A DNA stretch of 64,000 nt from Herbidospora sakaeratensis (GTDB taxonomy: Bacteria; Actinomycetota; Actinomycetes; Streptosporangiales; Streptosporangiaceae), in NCBI RefSeq assembly GCF_001570525.1, contig NZ_BBXC01000010.1:62001-126000 (forward strand), read 5' to 3'. A program made the position numbers and the translations under genes. The notes beneath the pieces were generated by a model. The model was not told the DNA's origin. It was given only the letters and a program-made list of their open reading frames with translations, and did no database searches. Shown piece after piece: positions 15,685-54,567 of the stretch. Positions within the stretch are counted from its first letter, which is position 1; each line of letters begins with the position of its first letter.

Positions 15685-16403
15685 AGGTCTGGGACACCAT
15701 GACGGGCAACGACCTCACCCGGGACTGGCTGGCGTTCGAGGCCCGCGCCGAGAAGCTGCCGGCCGACTACCGGGAGGCGTGGGAGCAGATCAAGGGCCAT
15801 CTCTTCCCTTATGGAGACTTCAGCGGCCGGAACCTGATGCCGATCCTCGACGGCGCGCTGGGGCTGCTCGAGGAGACGGCGGCCGACGGGCGGAGCATCC
15901 ACGAAGTGCTGGGCGACGACGTCCCCGGTTTCTGCGCGGCGCTGGCCGGCGGCGAGGGGGCCCGCAGCCATCGCGACCGGTGGCGGGCGCGGTTGAACAG
16001 AAAAGTGGCCCGCAAACTGGGCATCCGGAACATCGTCGAAGGCAAGCGGCAGTGGCGGGCGTACGTCGCCCGGATCAAGGCGCTGCCGCCCGACTACCAG
16101 ATCGTCTACAAGGAGATGCAGCGCTACTTCTTCAGGGTCGGGGCGGCCGACCTGCTCGCCGGCGTCCTCGACTTCTTCGAGGAGGGCGCGGCCGAGGGCA
16201 AGGGGGTGCTGGAGCTGACCGGAACCGACGTCGCGGCCTTCTGCGACGACCTGATCGACGGATCGCGCCTCCGCATGACCGGGCATCCCGACCTGCGGAC
16301 CGCCGCGGGCGTCGTGCTCGCGGGCGGCCGGTCCACCCGGATGGGACCGGCCCAAGGCGTGGCTGGAGTGGCCGGCTCGACCCGGCGCTGGAGTCGGTGG
16401 TGA
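15681..16403 (+). CDS. Tandem DUF1048 protein with a fused mobA-derived tail
   Basis: Two DUF1048 helical domains in a row: about 1-95 (WEQIKGHLFPYGDFSGRNLMPILDGALGLLEE, then VLGDDVPGFCAAL) and about 105-195 (YKEMQRYFFRVGAADLLAGVLDFFEEGAAEGK, then VAAFCDDLIDG). DUF1048 proteins are normally single-domain, about 110 residues. After residue 195 the frame runs without a stop into AAGVVLAGGRSTRMG, which is the nucleotide-binding signature of molybdopterin guanylyltransferase, and ends soon after. The last 40 or so residues therefore come from a neighbouring decayed gene. Coupled to padR by ATGA. Confidence 0.82.
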   Translation: MKVWDTMTGNDLTRDWLAFEARAEKLPADYREAWEQIKGHLFPYGDFSGRNLMPILDGALGLLEETAADGRSIHEVLGDDVPGFCAALAGGEGARSHRDRWRARLNRKVARKLGIRNIVEGKRQWRAYVARIKALPPDYQIVYKEMQRYFFRVGAADLLAGVLDFFEEGAAEGKGVLELTGTDVAAFCDDLIDGSRLRMTGHPDLRTAAGVVLAGGRSTRMGPAQGVAGVAGSTRRWSRW

Positions 16404-40739: not shown

Positions 40740-41668
40740 CCGAGCCCCAGGTGCCCGACCGCCCCACGCAAGTGCTCAGACGCTCCTGGTGGCAGGTGCT
40801 CCGGCGCACGGTGGCGGAGTTCCAGGAAGACAAGATCGCCGACTGGGCCGCGGCGCTGACTTATTACGCGATCCTGTCGATCTTCCCGGCCCTGCTGGCC
40901 GTGGTCTCGCTGCTGGGCCTGTTCGGCCAGTCGGCCACGCAGCCGATCTCCGACAACCTCGCCGCCATCGCGCCCGGCCCGGCCCGGCAGATCATCGACA
41001 CGGTGCTCCAGTCGCTGCAGGACAGCCGGGGCGCGGCCGGGATCGCCACCGTCATCGGGCTCGCCGTGGCGCTCTGGTCGGCGTCGGGCTACGTCGGGGC
41101 GTTCATGCGGGCCGCCAACATCATGTACGAGATGCCCGAGGGCCGCCCCATCTGGAAGACCCTGCCGCTCCGCCTGGGCATCACCGCGGTGCTGGTCGTG
41201 ATGATGGCCGCCGGCGCCGTCGCCGTGGTGTTCACCGGCGGCCTGGCCGAGCAGGCCGGACGGGTGCTGGGCATCGGCGACACCGGGCTGACCGTCTGGA
41301 ACATCGCCAAGTGGCCGGTGCTGGTGGTCGTCTTCATCTTCGTGCTGGCGCTGCTCTACTGGTTCGCGCCCAACGTCGAGCACCCGGGCTTCCGGTGGAT
41401 CACGCCCGGCAGCACCGTGGCGGTCATCGGCTGGATCGCAGCCTCCGGCCTGTTCGGCTTCTACGTCGCCAACTTCGGGTCGTACAGCAAGACGTACGCG
41501 ACGCTGGCCGGGGTCGTGGTGTTCCTCATCTGGTTGTGGATCACCAACATCGCCATTCTGCTCGGGGTCGAGTTCGACGCGGAGATCGCCCGGGGCCGCG
41601 CGATCGCCGCCGGGCAGCCCGCCGACCAGGAGCCCTACGTCGAGCCCCGCGACACCCGCAAGCTCTAG
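40736..41668 (+). CDS. YihY/BrkB-family membrane protein
   Basis: 310 residues with six or seven membrane helices. Family signatures: DWAAALTYYAILSIFPALLAVVSLLGLFG, ALWSASGYVGAFMRAANIMYE, LYWFAPNVEHPGFRWITPGSTVAVIGWI and GVVVFLIWLWITNIAILLGVEFDAEIARG. Formerly annotated as ribonuclease BN, which is not supported; the function is unknown, possibly an inner-membrane transporter or assembly factor. Overlaps the convergent ANTAR gene by 4 bp. Confidence 0.92.
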   Translation: MTEPQVPDRPTQVLRRSWWQVLRRTVAEFQEDKIADWAAALTYYAILSIFPALLAVVSLLGLFGQSATQPISDNLAAIAPGPARQIIDTVLQSLQDSRGAAGIATVIGLAVALWSASGYVGAFMRAANIMYEMPEGRPIWKTLPLRLGITAVLVVMMAAGAVAVVFTGGLAEQAGRVLGIGDTGLTVWNIAKWPVLVVVFIFVLALLYWFAPNVEHPGFRWITPGSTVAVIGWIAASGLFGFYVANFGSYSKTYATLAGVVVFLIWLWITNIAILLGVEFDAEIARGRAIAAGQPADQEPYVEPRDTRKL

Positions 41669-42306
41669 ATCTCCCGGGCGATGAGGCGTTCGGCCACGTC
41701 TCTGAGCTTCAGGTGGGCGTTCTGGGAGGTGCGGCGCAACTCGGCGAAGGCCTGTTCGGCGTCGACCCCGAGCGCCTGCATGATCATGCCCTTGGCCTGC
41801 TCGATCGTCTCCCTGCCCTCCATGGTCTCGCGGAGCTGGCGGACCTCCCGCGACTGCCGCTCCTGGGCGTCGGCGAAGGTCGACAACCGGGCCGCCTGCC
41901 GGGCCAGGGTCTCGGCGAACGGGGCCGCCGACTCGTCGGGCTCCCCCGGGCGCAGGCCGTAGACGGTGACCACCGCGGTCACCCCGGGGCCGTGGCCCGA
42001 GGCCGCCACACAGCCGCGCAGGCCGCGCGCGAGGGCCTCCCGCCCGAACCTGACCCAGCGGGGGTCGCGGCCGAGGTCGGGCACGGCCACCGGCCGCTCC
42101 GAGCGCAGGGCGGCGAGGCCGGGGCCGTCGCCGAGGAAGTGTTCCAGCTCGACGAGTTCCCCGAGTTCGGGGTGGGAGGCGACCAGCACGGTCTCGGCGC
42201 CGGGGCGCGGCCAGACCGCCATCGTCGCCCCGCACCCGCCCGGCATCGCCGCCGCTTCGTCGGCCAGGGCGTGCAGCACGTCGTCTCGCATGAGGATCTC
42301 CGTCAC
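41665..42306 (-). CDS. GAF-ANTAR antiterminator-type regulator
   Basis: 213 residues. A GAF-like sensor of about 140 residues (VWPRPGAETVLVASHPELGELVELEHFLGDGPGLAAL, VPDLGRDPRWVRFGREALARGLRGCVAA) is followed by ANTAR (ETIEQAKGMIMQALGVDAEQAFAELRRTSQNAHLKLRDVAERL). ANTAR domains bind paired hexaloop hairpins in RNA to prevent termination. GTG 42306 overlaps the isochorismatase stop in GTGA, so it is the last gene of the heptose operon. It may adjust its own or other transcripts; the RNA target is not identified. Confidence 0.88.
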   Translation of the reverse strand: MTEILMRDDVLHALADEAAAMPGGCGATMAVWPRPGAETVLVASHPELGELVELEHFLGDGPGLAALRSERPVAVPDLGRDPRWVRFGREALARGLRGCVAASGHGPGVTAVVTVYGLRPGEPDESAAPFAETLARQAARLSTFADAQERQSREVRQLRETMEGRETIEQAKGMIMQALGVDAEQAFAELRRTSQNAHLKLRDVAERLIAREI

Positions 42307-42842
42307 AGGCAGTCGGTGGCCGGGAGCAGGTCGGCCCGCATGTTCCGCTCCATCATGCGCAGGGCCGCGGCGCCGAGGTCGTCGTGGATGGCCGCCACTC
42401 CGTCGACGGCGACCCTGACCGAGAACTCGCGCACGTAGGCGTCGAGCGCGCTGTAGAGCACGCACTGCTCGGTCACCTGGCCGGCCAGGACGACCGTCTC
42501 GACGTGTTCGCGGTTGAGCGCGTACTCCAGCGGGGTGCCGTAGAAGACGCTGTGGCGCACCTTCGGCAGGAACGCGAAGTTCCCCGGCGGCACCAGCGGT
42601 TCGACCAGGTCGGGACGCCGGCCGGCCAGCGCGCGCCGGATCAGGTCGTCGCGGGTCGCGCTGAAGTCGCCGTGGTTGTCGTTGACGAAGATCAGCTCCA
42701 CGTCGGCCCGCCGGGCCTTGTCGATCAGCCGGACGATCGGCCCGATCGTCTTCTCCACGTTGGCGGCCAGCGTCTCGGCGTCCTCGTGGTCGTAGGCGTT
42801 GAGCACGTCCATCACCACGACCGCGGTCGAGGCGCCGCTCAT
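42303..42842 (-). CDS. Isochorismatase-like cysteine hydrolase
   Basis: 179 residues. Isochorismatase fold with catalytic Asp in VVVMDVLNAYD, Lys in LPKVRHSVFYGTPLE and Cys in AGQVTEQCVLYSALDAY (about 121). This set is also seen in nicotinamidases and N-carbamoylsarcosine amidases; amide substrates such as a carbamoyl group are conceivable given the carbamoyltransferase in the operon, but this is speculation. ATG 42842 overlaps the GT4 stop. Confidence 0.85.
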   Translation of the reverse strand: MSGASTAVVVMDVLNAYDHEDAETLAANVEKTIGPIVRLIDKARRADVELIFVNDNHGDFSATRDDLIRRALAGRRPDLVEPLVPPGNFAFLPKVRHSVFYGTPLEYALNREHVETVVLAGQVTEQCVLYSALDAYVREFSVRVAVDGVAAIHDDLGAAALRMMERNMRADLLPATDCL

Positions 42843-44038
42843 GAGGCCGTGCGTTCCACGCGGCGCATCGCCTGGGCGTAGGCGGCGACGGTGTCGCGCG
42901 CCACCCGGTCCCAGCCGTAGCGGGTGGCGGCCCGGTCGGCTCCGGCGATCCCGAAGGAGTCGCTCTGCAGGGGGTCGTCCAGCAGCCGCCGGACCGCCGC
43001 GGCGACGGCCGTCGGCCGGCGGGGCGGCACCAGCAGGCCCGTCACCTCGTTGACGACGGTGTCCTTCTGGCCGCCGACCGCCGAGGCGATCACCGGCACC
43101 CCGCAGGCCATCGCCTCCAGCACGACCATGCCGAAGGGCTCGTACCAGGGCACGCAGACCACGGCGGCGGCCGAGCGCATCAGGCCCGGCACGTCGTCGC
43201 GCGCCACCTGGCCGGTGAAGGTCACCCGGTCGGCCACGCCGACGCGGTCGGCCTCGGCCCGCAGCCGGATCGCCTCCTCGTCGTGGTCGAGCTCGCCGGC
43301 GGGCCGGCCGCCGCCGACGACCAGATCGGCCTCCGGCACGTACGGCAGCGCCTGGACCACCGTGTCGACGCCCTTGCGCGGCACGAGCCGCCCGATCGAC
43401 AACAACCTCGGCCGCACCGGGCGCGTACCGGGCACGCCGGGACGGAACAGGCCGAGGTCGACCCCGCACGGCACCACGCGGGCACGGTGGCGGGGCACCC
43501 CCATCCGGGCCAGTTCGTCGACCTCGTCGGGGCAGGTCGAGACGATCACGTCGGCGGCGCGCCCGATGGCCGTCTCGGCGGCGATGCGCTCGGCCGGGCT
43601 GGTGTCGGCCGGGCCCTGGTGGCGGCGCTTGACCGTGCCCAGCGCGTGGAAGGTGTGCGCGACCGGCACGCCCAGCCGCCCGGCCGCGCCGAGGGTGGCC
43701 AGGCCGCTCATCCAGAAGTGGCTGTGCGCCACGTCCGGGCGCTCGAAGGCCCACTGCTCCCGCAACCAGGAGGCGAAGTCGGGCACCCACGGCAGGATGT
43801 CGTCCTTCGGGATCGGCGCCGGCGGCCCGGCGGGCACGTGGGCGACCGTGACGCCGGGCCCGAGCGGCACCCGTTCGGGCAGGCCGGGATCGTCTCTGCG
43901 GGTGTAGACGGTGACCTCGTGGCCGAGCGCCGCGAGCGCGGTGGCCAAGGCCGCCACGTGCACGTTCTGGCCGCCCGCGTCCGGGGTGCCCAGCCCGGCC
44001 AGCGGGCTGGCGTGCTCCGAAACCATCGCGATCCTCAT
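42839..44038 (-). CDS. GT4-family glycosyltransferase (MshA-like)
   Basis: 399 residues, GT-B fold. N-terminal SEHASPLAGLGTPDAGGQNVHVAALATALAALGH with the glycine-rich acceptor loop, C-terminal LLSIGRLVPRKGVDTVVQALP and the E-x7-E motif EPFGMVVLEAMACGVPVIASAVGG. The GGQNVHV start is close to MshA and sucrose-phosphate-synthase relatives. Retaining transferase using a nucleotide sugar; the acceptor is the product of this operon. ATG 44038, overlaps both neighbours by 4 bp. Confidence 0.9.
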   Translation of the reverse strand: MRIAMVSEHASPLAGLGTPDAGGQNVHVAALATALAALGHEVTVYTRRDDPGLPERVPLGPGVTVAHVPAGPPAPIPKDDILPWVPDFASWLREQWAFERPDVAHSHFWMSGLATLGAAGRLGVPVAHTFHALGTVKRRHQGPADTSPAERIAAETAIGRAADVIVSTCPDEVDELARMGVPRHRARVVPCGVDLGLFRPGVPGTRPVRPRLLSIGRLVPRKGVDTVVQALPYVPEADLVVGGGRPAGELDHDEEAIRLRAEADRVGVADRVTFTGQVARDDVPGLMRSAAAVVCVPWYEPFGMVVLEAMACGVPVIASAVGGQKDTVVNEVTGLLVPPRRPTAVAAAVRRLLDDPLQSDSFGIAGADRAATRYGWDRVARDTVAAYAQAMRRVERTAS

Positions 44039-44940
44039 CGCACCACCTCCTTGAGCAGCCGGTCCCAGTCGGCGAGGAACCGGTCGAGTCCGTAGCGGCC
44101 GAGGGCCGCCGCACGGGCCGCCTCACCCGTGTGGCGGGCGAGATCGGGGTCGGCGGCGAACTGCCGCGCCGCCTCGGCGAGCCGGCCGGGGTCGGTGGAC
44201 AACACGCCCGCCCCGGGCGGCACCGCCTCCCCGGCCTCGGTCGAGGCGACCGCGACGACGGGCATGCCGAGGGCCATGGCCTCCAGCAGCGACAGGCCGA
44301 GCGAGGTCCATCGGTACGGGTGGACGTAGACCCGCCGCCGCGCCAGCTCGGTCAGCATGCGGTCGTGGGGGAGGTCGCCCTGGCCGTTCTCCAGCGCCTC
44401 GGTGCCGATGCCGAAGACGTCCACGGGCGAGAAGAGGTGCAGCAGGTCGGTGCCGGCCACGCGGGTCCGGCGGACCGGCTCGTTGATCACGGCGGCGGCT
44501 CTGGGGAGCTCGCCGGTGTACCGCCTCCCGGGGTCCGGGACGCCGTGCTCGATCACCCTGGCGGCGGCCCGGCCGTTGTCCCAGAAGAGACGGTTGAAGT
44601 GGGTGACGTGCACGAGCGGCCCGCCCCGGTCGGCCATGGGGTGGCGGGTCTGCACATCGGGCGGGGTGTTGTGCTCGACGTACACCCACGGCACGTCGCG
44701 GCCCAGCCAGCGGCGGGCCAGCTCCAGCTCGTCGGGGCGCTGCAGGACGACGACGTCCACGGGTTCGTCGCGCAGCCGCTCGGGGGCGACCTCGCGGGCG
44801 TTGGCGGGCCAGTCGTAGGTGCGGGCGCGGCCCCGGCCGTAGGGGCCTCGGTCGGGGGTGACCGGGACCAGGTAGTCGTGCGGGCCGTGCACGAACGCCG
44901 TCATCCAGGAGCCGTGCACGTGCCAGGCCAGGATCCTCAT
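44035..44940 (-). CDS. GT-B-type glycosyltransferase
   Basis: 301 residues, shorter than the GT4 next to it. C-terminal donor-site features: YVHPYRWTSLGLSLLEAMALGMPVVAVAST and a short tail DRLLKEVVR. The N-terminus WHVHGSWMTAFVHGPHDYLVP with TPDRGPYGRGRARTYDWP resembles GT families with a glycine-rich G-P-Y-G-R-G-R loop seen in other actinomycete glycan clusters. ATG 44940. Overlap 4 bp on both sides. Confidence 0.82.
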   Translation of the reverse strand: MRILAWHVHGSWMTAFVHGPHDYLVPVTPDRGPYGRGRARTYDWPANAREVAPERLRDEPVDVVVLQRPDELELARRWLGRDVPWVYVEHNTPPDVQTRHPMADRGGPLVHVTHFNRLFWDNGRAAARVIEHGVPDPGRRYTGELPRAAAVINEPVRRTRVAGTDLLHLFSPVDVFGIGTEALENGQGDLPHDRMLTELARRRVYVHPYRWTSLGLSLLEAMALGMPVVAVASTEAGEAVPPGAGVLSTDPGRLAEAARQFAADPDLARHTGEAARAAALGRYGLDRFLADWDRLLKEVVR

Positions 44941-45920
44941 CGCCGGACCTCCTCGATCGCCGCGTACACCTCGGCCGGGACCACCGAGCTCAGGCACGGG
45001 TGCCCGGCGACCGGGCAGACCGTGGCCCGGGTCCCGGCGCAGGCGGCGTGCTGGTCGCCGAGCAGCCGGTACGGCACGCCGTAGGGCGCCCACCGGACGG
45101 CGGGCACCGTCGGCGCGAACAACGACACCACGGGCGTGCCGACGGCGGCGGCCAGGTGGGCGGGTCCGGTGTTCCCGGCCACCACGACCCGGGCCCCGGC
45201 CAGCACCCCGGCCAGCTCCTCCAGGGTGGTTCGCCCGCCGAGGTCGACGCCGTGCCGCCCGGCGACGCGGGCGGTGAGCCCGCGTTCGCCCGGCGAGCCG
45301 GTCACCACCACCGGATGGCCGTGCCGGGCGAGCAGGTCGACCAGCCCGGCGCAGTGCCCCGGCGGCCACGCCCGCGCGGGCACCGAGGCGCCCGGGTGGA
45401 CGACGAGGTACCCCGGCGGCAGGTCCGGCTCGGGCAGCGGCCGCCGCACCGCCAGGTGGAAGCCGCGCGGCGGATATCCGGCCGCCGTCGTCAGGCTGAG
45501 GGCGCGTTCGGCCTCGGGGAGGTCGTCGGGCACCCGGTGCCGCAGGTCGAGCAGCGAGCCCGGGTAGTCGTCGCTGATCGCGCCGATCCACGGCACCCCG
45601 GCCATCCGCAGCAGCAGCGCCAGCGGCAGCGGCGACTGGTGGAACGAGGTGAAGATCAGCGCCCGGTCGACGTCGTCGGCCATCTTGACCAGCAGCCGCA
45701 GGTGCTCGGGGTCGACCGGGTCGGGTTCGGGCTCGATCCAGGGCGCCGGCCACTCCAGCACCCGGTCGACGCCCGGCAGCAGGTCGGCGGCCGACCGGCC
45801 GCGCGGGCCCGCCAGCAGGGTCACCCGGCCGGCCCCCGCCGCCACGGCGCGGACCGCCGGGCCGGTCAGCAGCACGTCCCCGACGCTGTCGAGGCGCGCC
45901 AGCAGCACGTGTGCGCTCAT
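44937..45920 (-). CDS. GT9-family (heptosyltransferase-like) glycosyltransferase A
   Basis: 327 residues. The GT9 pattern: LLARLDSVGDVLLTGPAVRAVA at the start, LVVHPGASVPARAWPP (donor loop), LDLGGRTTLEELAGVLAGARVVVAGNTGPAHLAAAVGTPVVSLF (NTGP-x-H-L-A, catalytic region) and a late Cys-containing tail. GT9 enzymes such as WaaC and WaaF use ADP-heptose, and this gene shares an operon with ADP-heptose synthesis genes. ATG 45920. A 12-bp tandem repeat lies across its start and the previous stop. Confidence 0.88.
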   Translation of the reverse strand: MSAHVLLARLDSVGDVLLTGPAVRAVAAGAGRVTLLAGPRGRSAADLLPGVDRVLEWPAPWIEPEPDPVDPEHLRLLVKMADDVDRALIFTSFHQSPLPLALLLRMAGVPWIGAISDDYPGSLLDLRHRVPDDLPEAERALSLTTAAGYPPRGFHLAVRRPLPEPDLPPGYLVVHPGASVPARAWPPGHCAGLVDLLARHGHPVVVTGSPGERGLTARVAGRHGVDLGGRTTLEELAGVLAGARVVVAGNTGPAHLAAAVGTPVVSLFAPTVPAVRWAPYGVPYRLLGDQHAACAGTRATVCPVAGHPCLSSVVPAEVYAAIEEVRR

Positions 45921-46885
45921 CCCCTCGTCGATCCCCTCGTCGATCCCTTCGTCGGCTCCCGTTCCTCCGCGAACCAGCGGATCGTGCGGCGCAGCCCGGC
46001 CGTGGCCGGCACCGCCGGCCGCCAGCCGAGCCGGGCGGCGGCCAGCGAGGTGTCCGGGCAGCGCCGGTGCGGGTCGTCGACCGGACGGTCGACGTGGACG
46101 ATCGGGGACGACGACCCGGCCAGGTCGCGGATCTCCCTGGCCAGCTCGGTCATGGTCGTCTCGGCCGGGTTGCCGATGTTCACCGGCCCGGCGAAGTCGC
46201 TGTCGGCCAGGGCGAGCACGCCGTCGACCGTGTCGTCGACGTAGCAGATCGAGCGGGTCTGCTCGCCGCTGCCGGTGACCGTGATCGGCTCCCCGGCCAG
46301 GGCCTGGCGGATGAACGTCGGGATGGCGCGGCCGTCGTGGGGGCGCATGCGCGGCCCGTAGGTGTTGAAGATGCGGACGATCGCGGTGTCCATGTCGTGG
46401 GCGTGGCCGTAGGCGGTGGTCAGCGACTCGCCGAACCGCTTGGCCTCGTCGTACACGCTGCGGGGGCCGACCGGGTTGACGTTGCCCCAGTAGTCCTCCC
46501 GCTGCGGGTGCTCCAGCGGGTCGCCGTAGACCTCGCTGGTGGAGGCCAGCACGAACCGGGCGCCCTTCTCCCTGGCCAGGCCCAGCGTGTGGAGGGTGCC
46601 GGTGCTGCCGACCTTGAGGGTCTCGACGGGATAGGCCAGGTAGTCGGCCGGGGAGGCGGCCGAGGCGAAGTGGAGCACCAGGTCGACCGGTCCCGACACG
46701 TGCAGGAACTCGGTCACGTCGCAGTCGACCATCCGGAAACCCGGCCGCTCCATCAGGTGGGCGACGTTCTCGGGGTCGCCGGTGAGCAGGTTGTCGAGGC
46801 AGACCACCTCGTCGCCCCGGTCGAGCAGCCGTTCGCACAGGTAGGAGCCGAGGAACCCGGCCCCGCCGGTCACGACGGTCCTCAT
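45917..46885 (-). CDS. UDP-glucuronate decarboxylase-like NAD-dependent epimerase/dehydratase
   Basis: 322 residues, extended SDR. VVTGGAGFLGSYLCERLLDRGDEVVCLDNLLTG, FASAASPADYLAYPVETLKVGSTGTLHTL, STSEVYGDPLEHPQREDYWGNVNPVG, and catalytic RSVYDEAKRFGE. The WGNVNP(V/I)G...Y-D-E-x-K-R combination is that of UXS (UDP-xylose synthase) rather than HldD heptose epimerase. It could supply UDP-xylose or a derived sugar. The C-terminus ends with EPTKGSTRGSTRG, produced by a 12-bp repeat. Confidence 0.85.
   Translation of the reverse strand: MRTVVTGGAGFLGSYLCERLLDRGDEVVCLDNLLTGDPENVAHLMERPGFRMVDCDVTEFLHVSGPVDLVLHFASAASPADYLAYPVETLKVGSTGTLHTLGLAREKGARFVLASTSEVYGDPLEHPQREDYWGNVNPVGPRSVYDEAKRFGESLTTAYGHAHDMDTAIVRIFNTYGPRMRPHDGRAIPTFIRQALAGEPITVTGSGEQTRSICYVDDTVDGVLALADSDFAGPVNIGNPAETTMTELAREIRDLAGSSSPIVHVDRPVDDPHRRCPDTSLAAARLGWRPAVPATAGLRRTIRWFAEEREPTKGSTRGSTRG
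45918..45953. repeat. 12-bp tandem repeat across a stop/start junction
   Basis: Three copies of a 12-bp unit (CCCCTCGTCGAT on the plus strand, the third CCCTTCGTCGG- with changes) lie at the end of the epimerase gene, directly before the start of GT9 A. Gain or loss of units keeps the frame and would only lengthen the epimerase tail. Confidence 0.8.
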
Positions 46886-47748
46886 GCGACGCTCACCTCC
46901 AGCCGGTCCCGGGCCGCGCCCAGCACCTCGGTCACCGTGATCTCCAGCAGCCCGGGGTCGGGCACGCGGCCGTGCGGGTCGCCGGTGCGGCCGTGCCAGA
47001 TGACCCGGTGCGGCCCCGGCGGCGGCCCCCACGACGACGGGGACGTGGGGCCGAACAGCACCACCGACGGGGTGCCGTAGGCGGCGGCGAGGTGGGCCAC
47101 GCCGGTGTCGCCGCAGATCACCAGCTGAGCCCGGCGCACCGACTCGGCCAATTCCGGCAGGGTGGGCGTCAGAACCGGCAGGTCTCCCGCGACCCGCGCG
47201 GCCAGGTCGGTCTCGCCCGGCCCGGCCGTGACCACCACGGGCCGTCCTTCCGCGGTCAGCGCGGCGGCCACCTCGGCGAACCGCTCCGCCGGCCAGCGAC
47301 GGGCCGCGAAGGCCGCGCCGGGGTGGACGACGATCGGCCCGCCGCCCTCGTGCGGGCCGAGCCGGAGGTCGGCCGGGTCGGCGGGCACGCCGTACCAGCC
47401 GAGCAGGTCGCACCACCGGGCCACCTCGTGCGCGGCCGGGTTCCAGGGCGGCCCGGCCGTGTGGCTCATCAGCAGGCGGGGCCCGGCCGCGCGCAGCGCC
47501 GCGACGCTCTCGGGCCCCCGGCCGTGCAGGTTGACCGCGACGTCGCAGCCGGTCACCGGAACCGGACCGGGCCCGCGCACGTCGAGCCACGCGTCCGCCT
47601 CCCCGCCCAGCAGTTCCCGGTACGTCTCGGGCGCCGCCAGCACCAGCCGGTGGCGGGGGAAGGCCCGCCGCAGGGCGCGCAGCGCGGGCAGCCCGGTGAG
47701 CAGGTCGCCGAGCCCCAGGCCGCGCAGCACCAGCAGGTCTAGGGCCAC
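46882..47748 (-). CDS. GT9-family (heptosyltransferase-like) glycosyltransferase B
   Basis: 288 residues. LLVLRGLGLGDLLTGLPALRALRRAFP at the start, IVVHPGAAFAARRWPAERFAEVA, and RRAQLVICGDTGVAHLAAAYGTPSVVLFGPTSPSSWGPP (GDTG-x-x-H-L-A and the GPT motif of GT9). Related to, but clearly different from, GT9 A. The GTG 47748 start lies 10 bp inside the SDR end. Both GT9 genes imply at least two heptose-type transfers. Confidence 0.88.
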   Translation of the reverse strand: MALDLLVLRGLGLGDLLTGLPALRALRRAFPRHRLVLAAPETYRELLGGEADAWLDVRGPGPVPVTGCDVAVNLHGRGPESVAALRAAGPRLLMSHTAGPPWNPAAHEVARWCDLLGWYGVPADPADLRLGPHEGGGPIVVHPGAAFAARRWPAERFAEVAAALTAEGRPVVVTAGPGETDLAARVAGDLPVLTPTLPELAESVRRAQLVICGDTGVAHLAAAYGTPSVVLFGPTSPSSWGPPPGPHRVIWHGRTGDPHGRVPDPGLLEITVTEVLGAARDRLEVSVA

Positions 47749-48416
47749 GACGTCTCCATCGAGTGGCAGACGACCAGTTCGCGCACCTCGCACCCGGACG
47801 GCTGGGACAACACGAACACGACCGTCTCGGCGACGTCCTCGGGGCGGTTGAGCTGGGCGTCCGGGCCGGGTTTGTACTGTTCGGGGCGGCCGTCGAAGAA
47901 AGCGGTGCTCATGCCGCCGGGGATCAGCAGCGTCACGCCCACCGTCCCGGCCAGCTCGGCCGCCAGCGCCCGGGTGAACCCGACGACGCCGAACTTGCTC
48001 GCGCAGTAGGCCGTGGCGTCGCCGACGGCCTTGATCCCGAGCGTGGACGCGCAGGTCACCACCCGTCCCCGGCTCTCGATCAGAAACGGCAGCGCGGCCC
48101 GCACCACGGCGGCCGTGCCCAGCAGGTTCACCCGCACGACCCGTTCCCACGTGCCGGCCGGCACGTCGGCGAGCGCGCCGCAGGCGTCGGTCCCGGCGGC
48201 GGTGAAGACGCCGTCGAGCCCGCCCGCCTGCTGGGCCAGCGACCGGACGGCCGCCTCGGTCGCCTGGCCGTCGGCCAGGTCGGCGCGGACGTGCTCGAAG
48301 TCCTCCGGCACGGCGCGGTCGATGATCAGCGGCCGTCCGCCCGCCTTGGCGACGGCCCGCGCGGTGGCCAGCCCGAGGCCGGACGCGCCTCCGGTGATCA
48401 GGATGTTTCCCAGCAT
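47739..48416 (-). CDS. Short-chain dehydrogenase of the heptose operon
   Basis: 225 residues. ILITGGASGLGLATARAVAKAGG, TAAGTDACGALADVPAGTWERVVRVNLLGTAAVV, VVTCASTLGIKAVGDATAYCASKFGVVGFTRA (YxxxK) and an LIPGGMSTAFFDG late segment. A complete classical SDR that may modify a nucleotide sugar or another intermediate. ATG 48416 lies 19 bp inside the end of hldE. Confidence 0.87.
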   Translation of the reverse strand: MLGNILITGGASGLGLATARAVAKAGGRPLIIDRAVPEDFEHVRADLADGQATEAAVRSLAQQAGGLDGVFTAAGTDACGALADVPAGTWERVVRVNLLGTAAVVRAALPFLIESRGRVVTCASTLGIKAVGDATAYCASKFGVVGFTRALAAELAGTVGVTLLIPGGMSTAFFDGRPEQYKPGPDAQLNRPEDVAETVVFVLSQPSGCEVRELVVCHSMETSWP

Positions 48417-49756
48417 CGACGTTCCTTCCAGAGATCGGGCCGTCGGGCGGCGGCCGTGATGAGCCGGGTGGTGGAGCGTTCGGGCACCGTGTCGAGCAGC
48501 ACCAGTTCGGCGCCGACGTCGGCCAGCACCGCCGACTCGGGCAGCACCCGGCCGCCGTAGTCGGAGCCCTTGACCCACACGTGGGGCCGCAGGGCACGGA
48601 TGACCTCGGCCGGGGTGTCCTCGTCGAACACGACGACGCCGTCGACGTCCTCCAGCGCGGTCAGCACGGCCATCCGGTCGTCCTGCCGGGAGACCGGGCG
48701 GCCCTTGCCCTTGAGGCGGCGGACCGACAGGTCGGAGTTGAGGCAGACGACCAGCAGGTCGCCGAGCTCGCGGGCGCGGCGCAGCAGGCTGACGTGCCCG
48801 GCGTGCAGCAGGTCGAAGCAGCCGCCGGTGGCGACCACCCGGCCGCCCGCGCGGCGCACCCTGTCGGCCCGGCGCAGCACGTCGGCGTCGCCCTCCGGCG
48901 GCGCGGCGGGCACGCTCGCGACGCCGCCGGCCGACACGAACGCGGTGGCCGCCGTGGTCGCCGCCACGGCCGCCTCTGCGCAGGTCGCCCCGCCGAGCAG
49001 CGCGGCGGCCGCCGCCGTGGCGAACCGGTCGCCCGCGCCGCAGGTGTCGCCGCTGGTGACCGGCTCGGGCACGGGCACGTGGAAACCCCGGTCGCCGGAG
49101 TGGAACCGGGCGCCCTCGGCCCCGAGGGTGACCGCCACCGCCTCTCCGCCGAGCATGGCCAGCAGGCGGCGGGCCGCCTCGGCGGGCTCGCCGGAACCGG
49201 TCAGCGCGGTCGTCTCGGCCAGGTTCGGGGTCACCATCGTGCACTCGGGCGGCAGCGGGCCGCGCGGGTGCGGGTCCCACACCACGGGCCCGGCGGCCAG
49301 GCCGGGCAGCAGCTTCGCGACCAGGTCGGCGGCGCCGCGCCCGTAGTCGGAGACGAGGATCGCCCCCGCGCGGCGCAACACCGGCAGCGCCCGGCCGGTC
49401 AGGTCGCCGGCCACGCCGTCGCCGGAGTCGAGCCGGGCCAGCGTCGCGCCGCCCACCCTGATCCGGGTCTTGCGCACGGTCGTGCCGCGCATGGGCAGCG
49501 GGACGACCATCACGTGCCGGGCCAGCAGGCGGTGCAGCAGGCGGCCGTCCGGGTCGTCGCCGAGCGGCGTGACCAGCACGACCTGCATGCCGTCGGCCGC
49601 CGCCAGCAGCGCGGCCAGCCCGGCCCCGCCCGGCCGCACGCGCTCCGAGGCGTCCTCGACGACGGGCGCGCCGGAGTCGGGCGCGACCCGGTCGCTGCGC
49701 CCGTCGAGATCGCAGTCCAGCAGGGTGTCGCCGATGACGACCAGAGGTCCGGTCAC
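48398..49756 (-). CDS. hldE: Bifunctional heptose-7-phosphate kinase / heptose-1-phosphate adenylyltransferase
   Basis: 452 residues, close to the 477 of E. coli HldE. Residues 1-300: ribokinase-like kinase with VVIGDTLLDCDLDGRSDRVAPD, GGAGLAAL, VVWDPHPRG and SGDTCGAGDRFATA (the GAGD anion hole and base). Residues of about 315-452: cytidylyltransferase-like domain with VVATGGCFDLLHAGHVSLLRRARELGD (HxGH motif), LNSDLSVRRLKG and KGSDYGG. It carries out steps two and four of ADP-heptose synthesis. GTG 49756 overlaps the gmhA stop in GTGA. Confidence 0.9.
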   Translation of the reverse strand: MTGPLVVIGDTLLDCDLDGRSDRVAPDSGAPVVEDASERVRPGGAGLAALLAAADGMQVVLVTPLGDDPDGRLLHRLLARHVMVVPLPMRGTTVRKTRIRVGGATLARLDSGDGVAGDLTGRALPVLRRAGAILVSDYGRGAADLVAKLLPGLAAGPVVWDPHPRGPLPPECTMVTPNLAETTALTGSGEPAEAARRLLAMLGGEAVAVTLGAEGARFHSGDRGFHVPVPEPVTSGDTCGAGDRFATAAAAALLGGATCAEAAVAATTAATAFVSAGGVASVPAAPPEGDADVLRRADRVRRAGGRVVATGGCFDLLHAGHVSLLRRARELGDLLVVCLNSDLSVRRLKGKGRPVSRQDDRMAVLTALEDVDGVVVFDEDTPAEVIRALRPHVWVKGSDYGGRVLPESAVLADVGAELVLLDTVPERSTTRLITAAARRPDLWKERRCWETS

Positions 49757-50304
49757 GGCAGGGCCTCCTCGATCGCCTCGCAGAGCAGGTGCACCAGCAC
49801 CAGATGGACCTCCTGGACGACGCACGGGCTGCCCGACGGGACCGGGATCGCGTCGTCGCAGAGGGTCGCCAGGTCGTTGGGCGGCGGGCCGGTCAGCGCC
49901 CAGGTCATCAGGCCGGCGTCGCGGGCGGCGTGGGTGGCGGCCAGCACGTTGGGGCTGGTCCCGCTGGTCGACAACGAGAGCAGCACGTCGCCGGGGCGTC
50001 CGTGCGCCCGCACCTGGCGGGCGAAGACCTCCTCCGGGCCGTAGTCGTTGACGATCGCCGTGGTCGACGAGGTGTCGGCGTGCAGGGCGATGGCCGCGTA
50101 CGGCCGGCGGTCGGCCCGGAAGCGGCCGACGAGTTCGGCGGTCAGATGTTGCGCCTCGGCCGCCGAGCCGCCGTTTCCGCAGGCCAGCAGGCGTCCCCCG
50201 TCGTTCAGGACACCGGCCAGCTTGCGGCCCCACACACGGACCCGGGCCGTCTCGTGCTCCAGCCGGTTCAGCGTGGCGGTCAGATCGTTCAGGTGCGGAT
50301 GCAC
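49753..50304 (-). CDS. gmhA: Sedoheptulose-7-phosphate isomerase
   Basis: 183 residues. SIS fold: LLACGNGGSAAEAQHLTAELVGRF (the CGNGGSAA-D/E-AQH motif), ALHADTSSTTAIVNDYG, VFARQVRAHGRPGDVLLSLSTSGTSPNVLAA and a late VVQEVHLVLVHLLCEAIE with the zinc/active-site histidines (QEVHL-x-x-x-H). It converts sedoheptulose 7-phosphate to D-glycero-D-manno-heptose 7-phosphate, the first step of heptose synthesis. GTG 50304 overlaps the GT2 end by 16 bp. Confidence 0.92.
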   Translation of the reverse strand: MHPHLNDLTATLNRLEHETARVRVWGRKLAGVLNDGGRLLACGNGGSAAEAQHLTAELVGRFRADRRPYAAIALHADTSSTTAIVNDYGPEEVFARQVRAHGRPGDVLLSLSTSGTSPNVLAATHAARDAGLMTWALTGPPPNDLATLCDDAIPVPSGSPCVVQEVHLVLVHLLCEAIEEALP

Positions 50305-51260
50305 GCGCCTCCCCCTCTCACTCGGACCCGCAGTTCGCCGCCCAGCCGGTGCAGGCAGGCGGCGGGCGGTATCAGCACGCTGGTCGCGGCCATGCGCAGC
50401 ACCTCCGAGGGTGTTCTCGGCCCCGGCGCGATCCGGCTCCAGGCGAACCGGGCGGTCAGCGCCGCCCAGCCCGCGAACGCCGTCAGGGAGGCGGCCCGGT
50501 GGCCGCGACAGGCCAGCGCGGCGGCGGCCAGGCCGAGCGCCGTCGTCAGCGCGTGGTCGCCCAACCGGCCGGGCCCGCCGACGCGGGCCCGCCAGCCGGG
50601 GCCGTGGATCCGGCGCATCAGCGCGTCGTCGGCGTTGCCGCGCTGCCGTCGCAGGCTCGCCCAGAACCCCTCGTCCCTGACGGGGTGGACGGTGGTCCGC
50701 CGGCCGGTCACCAGCCGGTGGCCGGCCGAGGTCAGCCGCAGGGCCAGGTCGGCGTCCTCGCGGTAGGCGCGGGGGAAACGTTCGTCGAAGCCGCCCACGG
50801 CGGCCAGCGCGCTGCGCCGGAACGCCATGTCGGCGGTGATCCACCGGGCCGTGGTCAGGCCCAGGGTGTTACGTTCGGCGTCGGTCGGCGGCCGGCCCTT
50901 GTCGAGCGGCACCACGATCCGGGCCTGCGAGCCCGCCACCTCCGGCGGCAGGCCGCGCAGGTCGTCGCCGATCTTGTCGGCCCAGCCGGGCCCCGGCAGC
51001 ACGTCGTCGTCGAGGAAGACGACCCATTCCGTCGAGGCCGCACGCCACCCCTGGTTCCGGGCCGCCGCCGGGCCGCGTCCGCCCGAGGGCAGGATGACCA
51101 GCGTCGCCGACGGCTCCCCGACGGGCAGCCGGTCGGTGCGCCGCCACGGCCGGTCGTCGACCACGACGAGCGGGAACCCCTCCGGCACCGCCTCGGCGAC
51201 CGCGCGCAGCGTGTCGCGGCCGACGGTCGGGATCACCACGGTGATCTCCGGGTCGCTCAT
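50289..51260 (-). CDS. GT2-family glycosyltransferase
   Basis: 323 residues. GT-A fold: ITVVIPTVGRDTLRAVAEAV, VVDDRPW, ILPSGGRGPAAARNQGWRAASTEWVVFLDDDVLPGPGW (D-D-D motif), FRRSALAAVGGFDERFPRAYREDADLALRL (acidic ED-x-D base). A hydrophobic C-terminal part (ALTTALGLAAAALACRGHRAASLTAFAGWAAL) probably contacts the membrane. ATG 51260 overlaps the carbamoyltransferase in ATGA. Confidence 0.9.
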   Translation of the reverse strand: MSDPEITVVIPTVGRDTLRAVAEAVPEGFPLVVVDDRPWRRTDRLPVGEPSATLVILPSGGRGPAAARNQGWRAASTEWVVFLDDDVLPGPGWADKIGDDLRGLPPEVAGSQARIVVPLDKGRPPTDAERNTLGLTTARWITADMAFRRSALAAVGGFDERFPRAYREDADLALRLTSAGHRLVTGRRTTVHPVRDEGFWASLRRQRGNADDALMRRIHGPGWRARVGGPGRLGDHALTTALGLAAAALACRGHRAASLTAFAGWAALTARFAWSRIAPGPRTPSEVLRMAATSVLIPPAACLHRLGGELRVRVRGGGACIRT

Positions 51261-52885
51261 ACCGACCTCCGCACCAGGAACGGCCCGATGGCCAGCACGT
51301 CGACCGGCGCCGACCCGAAACACTCCAGGGCGTCGCGCGGATCGTCGACCATGGGCCGCCCGGCCGTGTTCAGCGAGGTGTTGACCACCACGGGCAGCCC
51401 GGTCAGCGACTCGAAGGCGTTCAGCACGGCCGCCATGAGCGGGTCGCGCCCCGCCGACACCGTCTGGATGCGGGCCGTCCCGTCGACGTGCACCACGGCC
51501 GGGATCCGGTCGCGCCACACGGGGGCGACGTCGTGCACGAACAGCATGTACGGGCTGGGCACCGGCCCCCGCGAGAAGATCTCGGCGGCCCGGCCCTCCA
51601 GCACCATGGGCGCGACCGGCCGGAACTGCTCCCGGCCCTTCACGTCGTTGAGCCGTTCGGTGTTGCGCGGATTGCCGGGGTGGGCCAGCAGCGAACGGCG
51701 GCCCAGCGCGCGGGGGCCGTATTCGCTGCGGCCCTGGAACCAGGCCACGATCCGGTCCTGGGCGAGGGCGTCGGCCACCGCCACCGCGATGTCGGGCGGG
51801 CGGGAATAGGGGATCTGGGCGACGTCGAGCCAGGCCGCCAGCTCGGCGTCGGTGAAGCCGCGGCCCAGGTCGGCCCCCGGCATCGGGGCGACCGGGTCGC
51901 CGTAGGTCTTGGCCAGGTGGAGGGCGCCGCCCAGGGCGGTGCCCGAGTCGCCGGCCGCCGGCTGGGCCCACACCTCGCGGAACGGGCTCCGCTCGAACAG
52001 GCGGGTGTTGGCCACGCAGTTCAGCGCCACCCCGCCGGCCAGGGCGAGCCGGTCGAGGCCGGTGCGGTCGTGCAACCACGCGGCCAGGTCGAGCAGCACC
52101 TCCTCCAGCCGGGCCTGGACGCTGGCCGCCAGGTCGGCGTGCTCGCCGTTCCAGGCGCCGCCGCGCGGCACCTGCTTGGCGAAGACGTTCCAGTCGATCG
52201 GGCCGACGTGGAAGCCGCCGTCGCCGGTCGCGCCGATCAGGTCGCGGAGCGCGGGCAGGTGCTTCGGCGTGCCGTAGGAGGCCATCGCCATGACCTTGTA
52301 CTCGTCGCTGGAGCGCAGGAAGCCGAGGTGGTCGGTGACGTCCTCGTACATGAGCCCGAGGGAATGGGGCAACGCCTGGCTCGCCAGCACGGTCAGCTCG
52401 CCGTCGCGGTAGGCGCCCGCCAGGTGGGAGACCGCCTCGCCGCGGCCGTCGCAGACCAGCACGGCGCAGTCGCCGAACGGCGCGGCCAGCCCGGCCGAGG
52501 CGGCATGGGCGATGTGGTGGGGGACGAACTTCACCTGCGCGGGGTCGAGCCCCGGCAACGCGGTCGCCAAGAAGGCGGGGGCCCGCACGGCGTAGGCGGT
52601 GCGCAGCATCTCCCAGGCCCCGTCCTGGCCGGGCCCGCCGTCCACCACCAGGGCCGGATCGTAGGAATAGGCCACCCCGTCGAGGTCCTCCGGCCGCAGC
52701 CCGGCCTTCTCCAGGCACCAGGCGGCCGCCGTCTCCGGCAACTCCCAGGCCGAGAACGCCAGTGGACGTTTGCCGTGTTTCCTCCTGCTGAATCGCTCCT
52801 CTTCCGCGGCGGCGACGGTACGCCCGTCCACCACCAGCGCGGCCGAAGGGTCATGGAAGATCGCGTTGATTCCCAGAAATCTCAT
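51257..52885 (-). CDS. Carbamoyltransferase (NodU/CmcH/TobZ family)
   Basis: 542 residues, the usual size. N-terminal Kae1-like domain with LGINAIFHDPSAALVVDGRTVAAAEEERFSRRKH, VPHHIAHAASAG (HHxxHA metal motif), VCDGRGE and GGVALNCVANTRL; C-terminal YrdC-related domain with GRSEYGPRALGRRSLLA, VLEGRA and TSLNTAGRPMVDDP. It transfers carbamoyl from carbamoyl phosphate through carbamoyl-AMP to a hydroxyl. As first gene of a sugar operon it most likely carbamoylates a sugar of the product. ATG 52885 fits the family N-terminus. Confidence 0.93.
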   Translation of the reverse strand: MRFLGINAIFHDPSAALVVDGRTVAAAEEERFSRRKHGKRPLAFSAWELPETAAAWCLEKAGLRPEDLDGVAYSYDPALVVDGGPGQDGAWEMLRTAYAVRAPAFLATALPGLDPAQVKFVPHHIAHAASAGLAAPFGDCAVLVCDGRGEAVSHLAGAYRDGELTVLASQALPHSLGLMYEDVTDHLGFLRSSDEYKVMAMASYGTPKHLPALRDLIGATGDGGFHVGPIDWNVFAKQVPRGGAWNGEHADLAASVQARLEEVLLDLAAWLHDRTGLDRLALAGGVALNCVANTRLFERSPFREVWAQPAAGDSGTALGGALHLAKTYGDPVAPMPGADLGRGFTDAELAAWLDVAQIPYSRPPDIAVAVADALAQDRIVAWFQGRSEYGPRALGRRSLLAHPGNPRNTERLNDVKGREQFRPVAPMVLEGRAAEIFSRGPVPSPYMLFVHDVAPVWRDRIPAVVHVDGTARIQTVSAGRDPLMAAVLNAFESLTGLPVVVNTSLNTAGRPMVDDPRDALECFGSAPVDVLAIGPFLVRRSV

Positions 52886-52918
52886 GGGACCCGCTTTCGC
52901 GTGGAGAACACCACTCGA

Positions 52919-52943
52919 GAAGCGCTCCTCCGAGTAGCGCTTC
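52919..52943. promoter_or_regulatory. Perfect inverted repeat in the bidirectional promoter of the heptose cluster
   Basis: GAAGCGCT (52919-52926) and AGCGCTTC (52936-52943) with a 9-bp spacer, 34-58 bp before the carbamoyltransferase start and upstream of gmhB. A TTGACA hexamer at 52981-52986 may serve the gmhB side. Possible operator for both directions. Confidence 0.55.
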
Positions 52944-53018
52944 ACCGGCGTCGGAAACGACCGCACCTGGTTTGGCGGCGTTGACATCCCCGGCCGGCGT
53001 CATGGGTAGCGCGAGATC

Positions 53019-53588
53019 ATGCGCGCGATTCTGTTCGACCGGGATGGGACCCTGATTGTCGACCTCCCCTACAACAACGACGCCAAACGTGTGCTCCCGA
53101 TGCCCGGCGCGCGGGCCGCCCTCGATCGCCTGCGGGCGGCGGGCGTGCCGATCGGAGTGATCACCAACCAGTCGGGGGTGGCCCGGGGCCTCATCACTCT
53201 CCGTGAACTCCGGGAAGTCAACGATCGGGTGGAGGAACTCCTCGGCCCGTTCGACGTGTGGGAGGTCTGCGTCCACGGCGAGGGCGACGGTTGCCCCTGC
53301 CGGAAACCGGCGCCGGGCATGGTCCTGTCGGCCGCGCGGCGGCTGGGGGTGCCGCCCGCCGAGTGCGTGGTGATCGGCGACATCGGCCGTGACATGGAGG
53401 CGGCGCGGGCCGCCGGGGCGCGGGGCATCCTGGTGCCCACGGCCGTCACGAAGATCGGCGAGATCCGGGCGGCCGAGCGGGTCGCCGCCGATCTCCCGGC
53501 GGCGGTCGAGGCGGCGCTCGCTTTTCAACCGCCGTCAGAGGGGCAGCGGGGCCCTGACGGAAGGAGAGGCCATGACCACCGCACGTGA
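53019..53588 (+). CDS. gmhB: D-glycero-beta-D-manno-heptose 1,7-bisphosphate 7-phosphatase-like HAD protein
   Basis: 189 residues. HAD-IIIA/histidinol-phosphatase-like: LFDRDGTLIVDLPYNNDAKRVLPMPGARAALDRL (DRDGT motif I), VITNQSGVARGLI (motif II), CVHGEGDGCPCRKPAPGM with the zinc-binding C-x-H-x5-C-x-C loop of GmhB, and VVIGDIGRDMEAARAAG (motif IV). It removes the 7-phosphate after HldE kinase action, completing ADP-heptose synthesis with gmhA and hldE across the divergent promoter. Its 3' end overlaps the CBS gene by 17 bp, making the last residues (PSEGQRGPDGRRGHDHRT) suspiciously non-conserved. Confidence 0.88.
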   Translation: MRAILFDRDGTLIVDLPYNNDAKRVLPMPGARAALDRLRAAGVPIGVITNQSGVARGLITLRELREVNDRVEELLGPFDVWEVCVHGEGDGCPCRKPAPGMVLSAARRLGVPPAECVVIGDIGRDMEAARAAGARGILVPTAVTKIGEIRAAERVAADLPAAVEAALAFQPPSEGQRGPDGRRGHDHRT

Positions 53589-53988
53589 GATCATGACCCC
53601 GAACGCGGAGTGTGTGAACTCCGACCAGACCATCGCCGAGGCGGCCGAGAAGATGCTCAGCCTCGACGTGGGCTCGCTGCCGATCTGCGGCGAGGACAAC
53701 CGGCTCCAGGGCATGCTGACCGACCGCGACATCGTGGTGAAGGTCATCGCCCAGGGCCGCGACCCGAAGTCGTGCCTGGCCGGTGAGCTGGGCGGCGCCG
53801 AGGTCGTCACCATCGGCGCCGACGACGACGCCCGCGAGGTCCTGCGGACGATGGGCTCCCACAAGGTCCGCCGGCTGCCCGTGATCGACGGGCACACCCT
53901 GGTGGGCATGGTCGCCCTGGCCGACGTCGCCCGGGCCGTGCCCGACGCCACGGTCGGCGACCTGATGGACGCCCTCACCACCGACTGA
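53572..53988 (+). CDS. Two-CBS-domain protein
   Basis: 138 residues, two CBS motifs: TAREIMTPNAECVNSDQTIAEAAEKMLSLDVGSLPICGEDNRLQGMLTDRDIVVKV and VVTIGADDDAREVLRTMGSHKVRRLPVIDGHTLVGMVALADVAR. Stand-alone CBS pairs bind adenine nucleotides. ATG 53572 has AAGGAGAGG upstream. It runs together with the hemerythrin gene (24 bp gap), a combination met in actinomycete stress regions. Confidence 0.92.
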   Translation: MTTAREIMTPNAECVNSDQTIAEAAEKMLSLDVGSLPICGEDNRLQGMLTDRDIVVKVIAQGRDPKSCLAGELGGAEVVTIGADDDAREVLRTMGSHKVRRLPVIDGHTLVGMVALADVARAVPDATVGDLMDALTTD

Positions 53989-54012
53989 CCCTCTTCGCAC
54001 TCTGGAGACGAG

Positions 54013-54567
54013 ATGAGCCAGACCGTCATCGACCTGATCTTGGCCGACCACCGCGACGTCGAGCAGCTCTTCGCGAAGCTCAAGGCCGAGCGGGAGAACC
54101 GCCCCGCGCTGGTGGCCGAACTGGCCGCCAAGTTCGTCGCGCACGCCCGCGCCGAGGAGGCCCACGTCTACGCCGCGCTGGCCCAGGCCGCGCCGAGCGA
54201 ACGGGGCGAGGTGCACCACGGCACCGAGGAGCATCACGAGGCCGAGGAACTGCTGGCCGCGCTGATGGCGGCCGATCCCGACAAGGCGGAGTTCGCCTCG
54301 GTTCTGGAGCAGATGGAGAAGGCCGTCAAGCACCACGTCGAGGAGGAGGAGAGCGACATCCTCCCCGTCCTCGCCAAGGCCGTGCCGGGCGACAAGCTGG
54401 TCCGGCTGGGCCGCGTGTTCAGCGAGGCCAAGGCGGCGGACCTGGCCAGGCCGCCGAAGCCGCGCGGCCGCACCAAGGAGGAACTGCTCGAACAGGCCAA
54501 GGAGAAGAACATCGAGGGCTACAGCTCGATGACCAAAGACCAGCTCCTGGCCGCGCTGGGCGAGTGA
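54013..54567 (+). CDS. Hemerythrin-like protein with a Rho-N/SAP-like tail
   Basis: 184 residues. Residues 1-130: HHE four-helix bundle with DHRDVEQLF, HARAEEAHVYAAL, HHGTEEHHEAEELL and KHHVEEEESDILP, which supply histidines and carboxylates for a di-iron site. Residues of about 150-184 (TKEELLEQAKEKNIEGYSSMTKDQLLAALGE) look like the helix-extended-loop-helix of Rho-N or SAP domains and could bind nucleic acid. Such fused hemerythrins are known in actinobacteria; oxygen or nitric oxide sensing or iron handling is likely. Ends one base before the convergent methyltransferase gene. Confidence 0.9.
   Translation: MSQTVIDLILADHRDVEQLFAKLKAERENRPALVAELAAKFVAHARAEEAHVYAALAQAAPSERGEVHHGTEEHHEAEELLAALMAADPDKAEFASVLEQMEKAVKHHVEEEESDILPVLAKAVPGDKLVRLGRVFSEAKAADLARPPKPRGRTKEELLEQAKEKNIEGYSSMTKDQLLAALGE

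Follow-up and report, generated by a model that had tools for sequence, protein, structure and literature searches.

The window analysed here, a stretch of 64,000 nucleotides from the 8.6 Mb genome of Herbidospora sakaeratensis (contig NZ_BBXC01000010.1, positions 62,001 to 126,000), carries a run of twelve genes on the minus strand, read from position 52885 down to 41665, and a divergently oriented gmhB gene (Table 1). Start and stop analysis places an overlap at each of the 11 junctions, measuring, in operon order, 4, 16, 4, 19, 10, 4, 4, 4, 4, 4, and 4 bp. The starts, several of which are GTG, were chosen with overlaps in view, and the last gene has an alternative ATG at 42291 that would leave it without one. 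A codon-usage-based gene caller, whose training set included ten of the operon's genes, returned the same 12 genes with overlaps at 10 of 11 junctions; it puts the start of one GT9 glycosyltransferase later, at 45908. In the rest of the window, 7 of 24 called same-strand neighbour pairs overlap on the left and 3 of 7 on the right, so the packing of the operon exceeds the local background. An earlier sequence-only reading had proposed a twelve-gene overlapping operon with a divergent gmhB, and this layout is confirmed with the chosen starts. The kinds of enzyme that it named, including two GT9, one GT2, one GT4, and a further GT-B glycosyltransferase, are right according to Pfam, but its list omitted the SDR oxidoreductase, the isochorismatase-like hydrolase, and the GAF-ANTAR protein.

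Table 1. Genes of the operon and the divergent gmhB, with window coordinates and the basis of each assignment.
Feature	Position	Strand	Basis
GmhB-type HAD phosphatase (heptose 1,7-bisphosphate phosphatase-like), divergent; cwgD counterpart	53019..53588	+	HAD domains
NodU/TobZ-family O-carbamoyltransferase; cwgB counterpart	51257..52885	-	Carbam_trans_N and _C
GT2 glycosyltransferase; cwgC counterpart	50289..51260	-	Pfam
GmhA, predicted sedoheptulose 7-phosphate isomerase; cwgH counterpart	49753..50304	-	SIS_2
HldE, predicted heptose 7-phosphate kinase and heptose 1-phosphate nucleotidyltransferase; cwgI counterpart	48398..49756	-	PfkB, CTP_transf_like
Classical SDR oxidoreductase	47739..48416	-	adh_short
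GT9a, heptosyltransferase-family glycosyltransferase, DTG motif	46882..47748	-	PF01075
UDP-glucuronate decarboxylase (UDP-xylose synthase, UXS)-like; cwgA counterpart	45917..46885	-	2b69 match, STSEVYG
GT9b, heptosyltransferase-family glycosyltransferase, NTG motif; cwgE counterpart	44937..45920	-	PF01075
GT-B glycosyltransferase, GT1/GT4-type C-terminal domain; cwgF counterpart	44035..44940	-	Pfam
GT4 glycosyltransferase; cwgG counterpart	42839..44038	-	Pfam; nearest solved relatives Tll1590, MshA-type
Isochorismatase-like hydrolase, overlapping neighbour outside conserved module	42303..42842	-	PF00857
GAF-ANTAR protein, overlapping neighbour found in Herbidospora alone; putative RNA-binding regulator	41665..42306	-	ANTAR, GAF_2

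The operon is of a type that is already known, namely cwg of Streptomyces coelicolor, which comprises cwgA-L (SCO6179-SCO6190) and which is described as one of just two sigmaE targets in the envelope stress response known before 2019 (PMC6767563). In S. coelicolor, cwg is sigmaE-dependent and induced by vancomycin, and salt raises the expression of cwgA as well. An exact match to the published cwg promoter was found in 1 of 392 genomes of the genus labelled g50 (genome G656, locus L115), and 8 more carry it with 1-3 mismatches; an earlier scan of genome contigs had given no match to the published promoter. At L115, the UXS-type open reading frame (ORF) can start at position 16277 at the earliest, 147 bp downstream of the promoter, which is the published distance; the codon-usage caller favours a later start at 16217. 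The divergent ORF, read by eye, is polysaccharide-deacetylase-like, as described for SCO6178 (PMC6767563). The carbamoyltransferase of G656 clusters with those of Streptomyces in the tree. Twelve ORFs follow in the order UXS, carbamoyltransferase, GT2, GmhB, GT9b, GT-B, GT4, GmhA, HldE, GT9a, GT2, GT2, and 7 of the 8 published cwg labels that were compared (B, C, D, E, G, H, I, J) fit these gene kinds. Of the nine genomes with at most three mismatches, four were inspected: the operon is present in G656 and G536, whereas no match to the window genes was found within 20 kb in G783 and G297, so a near-match promoter alone does not imply the operon.

Ten of the 12 cwg positions have counterparts in the window, i.e., UXS, carbamoyltransferase, GT2, GmhB, GT9b, GT-B, GT4, GmhA, HldE, and GT9a. 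The two operons also differ. The window operon begins with the carbamoyltransferase, its UXS gene has moved, and its gmhB is divergent; it has the SDR, isochorismatase-like, and GAF-ANTAR genes and lacks the two terminal GT2 genes of cwg. The SDR gene was not found in L115 or in the Streptomyces loci examined. Thus, the heptose and carbamoyl logic of the sequence-only reading was right, but it missed the identity with cwg, and its statement that the gene set was undescribed is not borne out, since content and order match those of S. coelicolor cwg. The literature consulted on cwg and on actinomycete heptose or carbamoyl-heptose products names no product.

To define the conserved part of the operon, we used a scan of named genomes in which the best 80 of 573 carbamoyltransferase relatives were kept, 55 of them with both 10 kb flanks. 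Among these 55 loci, GT2 was present in 44, GT9a, UXS, and GT4 in 43 each, GmhA and GT9b in 42 each, HldE and GT-B in 40 each, GmhB in 39, and the SDR in 32. The search for the same gene order in other actinomycetes recovered the same kinds of gene at 32-44 of 55 loci each. The isochorismatase-like gene was found at 4 loci and the ANTAR gene at 1, and in two congeners the former is moved or inverted; both were rejected as parts of the pathway. The conserved module is thus eleven genes: carbamoyltransferase, GT2, GmhB, two GT9, GT-B, GT4, GmhA, HldE, SDR, and the UDP-glucuronate-decarboxylase-like gene. Of the twelve-gene unit proposed earlier, ten genes plus gmhB stand as the biosynthetic unit, whereas the last two fall outside. 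One or two extra GT2 genes, not present in the window, accompany 24 of the 64 clusters with six or more core genes, either inside the cluster or next to it (L115:2851-4697 and 23 further loci). On its other side, gmhB is adjoined by genes for two proteins, one with a CBS domain and one with a hemerythrin domain and a Rho_N-like tail (53572-54567), and the CBS gene adjoins gmhB in several congeners too.

Across the class, a carbamoyltransferase match at E ≤ 1e-150 occurs in 80 of 394 genomes and 36 of 137 genera; these figures count the carbamoyltransferase itself, the neighbours having been checked for a minority of the class-wide and Streptomyces-genus matches. The carbamoyltransferase tree, which was rooted at its midpoint and holds 39 of the 41 rows planned for it, is largely family-wise, with two Nocardiaceae-labelled rows among Pseudonocardiaceae. 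At 18 of the best 80 loci, the carbamoyltransferase was the sole core gene found; 15 of them belong to Geodermatophilaceae by their titles, and the rest are one locus each from Microtetraspora, from a short contig of Actinomadura, and from an entry labelled Bacillus. The Geodermatophilaceae loci (L169, L181, L183, L186, L187, L192, L196-L199, L204, L205, L209-L211) encode a close carbamoyltransferase relative (69-72% identity), and no other cwg-type gene was found in their fetched flanks.

The sequence-only reading had seen in GmhA, HldE, and GmhB a complete route to an activated heptose, and conserved motifs and solved relatives support this set. All activities of the Gram-negative lipopolysaccharide (LPS) pathway to ADP-D-glycero-D-manno-heptose that these three proteins provide appear to be represented in the operon. 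The neighbour and motif counts rest on orthologue rows free of internal stops that scored 100 bits or more (70-80 in the case of short genes), covered 60% or more of the query, and had an identity of no less than 44%, or 50% in the case of UXS. The catalytic motifs of GmhA are conserved in its alignment, and the C-x-H..C-x-C motif of GmhB is present in the aligned rows listed. HldE has GAGD in 38 of 38 rows and HxGH in 36, the other two being gaps. Among the solved relatives of HldE are 4e84, which is a heptose 7-phosphate kinase, and 5x9q, a putative cytidylyltransferase. For GmhB, the uncharacterised HAD protein 3l8h ranks first, followed by the heptose bisphosphatases 4pnh (4.2e-21) and 2gmw (1.1e-15), and GmhB-type proteins also match HisB weakly. 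In 17 of 33 loci, GT2 and GmhB form one ORF, a fusion that ties the heptose route to the glycosyltransferases.

Two features set these proteins apart from the Gram-negative LPS pathway. First, none of the 17 HldD matches in the whole host genome exceeded the TIGR02197 cut-off of 274.6 bits, a search that returned over-cut-off proteins in 2 of 14 control genomes. A heptose of the D-glycero type is therefore expected. Second, an Arg stands directly before the S-T-T-like triplet of HldE in 27 of 38 rows, including the window (Y, Q, or H in 8, gaps in 2, one row misaligned), and in the window protein Glu replaces the Gly of the (F/L)XXGXSTT motif. A commentary on Tang et al. connects an Arg in the fifth position of the motif with the use of CTP and UTP.

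Related enzymes are found at two further loci of the host genome. One (L010:6312-10835, i.e., G000:C21:6312-10835) encodes an HldE-like protein together with two GT9 and a GT4 that shares 72% identity with that of the window; its HldE-like protein has QPAH instead of HAGH, lacks the STT end, and has probably lost the nucleotidyltransferase. All 7 of the Herbidospora genomes that were examined (L010, L070-L075) have this locus type. In the other (L011:7747-11982, G000:C13), GmhA is fused to a nucleotidyltransferase and the PfkB kinase is a protein of its own; a GT9 is also encoded, as is a carbamoyltransferase of which the C-terminal part alone was called.

The UXS-like protein had been read as an epimerase. 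The UXS likeness holds, but the protein is best read as a UDP-glucuronate decarboxylase, with 2b69 as its best match (9.4e-98) against 1.3e-41 for the next enzyme kind, UDP-glucose 4-epimerase. Its STSEVYG motif, which presumably contributes catalytic residues, is kept in 34 of 34 rows. Twelve of the 64 clusters have genes of the UDP-glucose-dehydrogenase family inside them or no more than 4 kb away (1 of the 12 was scanned by Pfam), which fits the need of UXS for UDP-glucuronate, and the host genome has four over-cut-off members of this family elsewhere. The NodU-type carbamoyltransferase of the sequence-only reading is likewise supported: both Carbam_trans domains are present, the solved relatives include 7xb6 and TobZ (3.8e-81), and H123, H124, and H127 (HHxxH) and D146, which we take to be catalytic, are invariant in 15 aligned rows.

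Both GT9 proteins exceed the PF01075 cut-off, and neither reaches an equivalog heptosyltransferase cut-off. At the position of the DTG motif, GT9a has Asp in 34 of 34 rows, a set that includes three paralogues from the second locus type, and GT9b has Asn in 35 of 35; among the five GT9 proteins of the host genome, Asn occurs in GT9b alone. GT9b matches WaaC at 6.4e-10 and places Asn opposite Asp261 (numbering counted from the printed alignment), a residue of the DTG motif that we assume to be functionally important. GT4 is nearest to Tll1590, presumably a sucrose-phosphate synthase, and to MshA-type proteins, and GT-B matches Tll1590 weakly. An MshA-like function of GT4 was considered but is not supported, as it scores 233 of the 462.5 bits of TIGR03449 and two of the four residues that we take to hold the acceptor phosphate in MshA are changed: K78 is kept, Y110 is replaced by F and T134 by A, while the position of R154 is taken by E and the next one by Arg. 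A phosphorylated acceptor for GT4 is thus not clearly supported.

Taken at the level of sequence, these data support the heptose and carbamoyl readings, and we consider it probable that the operon is the Herbidospora version of cwg and makes a short carbamoylated oligosaccharide containing heptose and pentose. In the scheme that we infer for the enzyme activities, the sugar order, the acceptor, the carbamoylation site, and any role in Herbidospora, GmhA, the HldE kinase, GmhB, and the HldE transferase would act in turn to convert sedoheptulose 7-phosphate into nucleotide-activated D-glycero-D-manno-heptose, presumably ADP-heptose and possibly CDP- or UDP-heptose as well. The UXS homologue would convert UDP-glucuronate into UDP-xylose. 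GT4, GT2, GT-B, and the two GT9 would then work at the cytosolic face to assemble the heptose/pentose oligosaccharide, which the TobZ/NodU-family enzyme may O-carbamoylate, perhaps on heptose. The suggestion of heptose as acceptor comes from WapO (PA5005) of Pseudomonas, described as a putative O-carbamoyltransferase for heptose in the LPS core (PMC8005017). The two systems share a carbamoyltransferase that acts beside heptosyltransferases, a likeness drawn from function, and they differ in that the Pseudomonas inner core contains L-glycero-heptose whereas D-glycero-heptose is expected here. By analogy with the sigmaE induction of cwg upon envelope damage in Streptomyces, a role of the product in altering or shielding the envelope is probable.

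Several observations weigh against this interpretation. In an NCBIfam scan, none of the ten operon proteins examined exceeded an equivalog cut-off, which marks them as divergent members of their families: the HldE nucleotidyltransferase domain reached 173.3 bits (cut-off 181.5), the HldE kinase domain 99.2 (345), the full HldE model NF008454 236.4 (521), and GmhA 168.8 against TIGR00441 (209.45). GT9b is without the heptosyltransferase Asp, and the published label of cwgD, 'dehydratase', does not fit GmhB. The six upstream stretches from Herbidospora contain no convincing sigmaE-type promoter; a loose CAAC-N-GGTCG match is present in 4 of the 6 and absent from the other 2, counts that have no chance control. 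HldE of the operon type occurs in 5 of 6 congeners, G006 holding the paralogue only, and the carbamoyltransferase in 49 of 150 Streptomyces-genus genomes (one partial), which suggests that the product is dispensable. Moreover, no flippase, polymerase, or ligase was noticed by eye among the 30 most frequent neighbour families, three of whose representatives were scanned by Pfam, and this fits a wall polymer poorly.

The last point bears on where the product goes. In the 64 clusters, a single core protein, a GT9b, has at least two hydrophobic segments by hydropathy, and so does 1 of the 23 non-core proteins inside them; a single hydropathy peak is seen in 23 of 56 GT-B and 13 of 53 GT9a proteins. 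With almost no membrane proteins in the module, the reading of the product as a wall polymer is tentative, and it stays conceivable, if rather unlikely, that the operon makes a soluble oligosaccharide or glycoside, such as a stress solute or a signal, with GT4 starting on a soluble acceptor and the later steps being cytosolic. The kinship of GT4 with Tll1590 and the response of cwgA to salt would also fit such a product. However, cwg is under the control of an envelope-stress sigma factor, membrane steps could be encoded elsewhere, and the partly changed phosphate-binding residues of GT4 do not clearly favour a phosphorylated acceptor.

That the operon makes a diffusible natural product, a septacidin- or hygromycin-like glycoside, and not a house glycan, seems improbable to us. 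The hygromycin B pathway uses ADP-heptose, and the gene content of the septacidin and hygromycin B pathways is wholly different from that of the window operon. What these pathways share with it is the use of heptose in an actinomycete, documented for septacidin in the commentary on Tang et al., and the patchy presence of the carbamoyltransferase and the antibiotic enzymes among its named solved relatives point the same way. Yet no aglycone genes are seen in the window operon, as the sequence-only reading had noted, nor aglycone, resistance, or exporter genes inside the clusters; the same module recurs in many families with a largely family-wise tree, and cwg is a sigmaE target. It would be equally surprising if the heptose enzymes acted on other sugar phosphates and made no heptose, as the scores below cut-off, above all that of the HldE kinase domain, and the lost Asp of GT9b might suggest, given that all three pathway proteins co-occur with their motifs kept, that a heptose kinase and heptose phosphatases are among their nearest solved relatives, and that two GT9 lie in the same operon.

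While the operon type itself was known as cwg, the Asn of GT9b, the GT2-GmhB fusions, the absence of an HldD above the cut-off, the scarcity of membrane proteins, and the neighbouring genes of the UDP-glucose-dehydrogenase family are new. The analysis defines a module conserved across actinomycete families and assigns its likely donors, i.e., D-glycero-heptose, xylose, and carbamoyl. This assignment turns a 'putative cell wall glycan' into targets for mass spectrometry in a standard laboratory Streptomyces, and the module points to heptose being made outside LPS as well, by a route widespread among Gram-positive soil bacteria.

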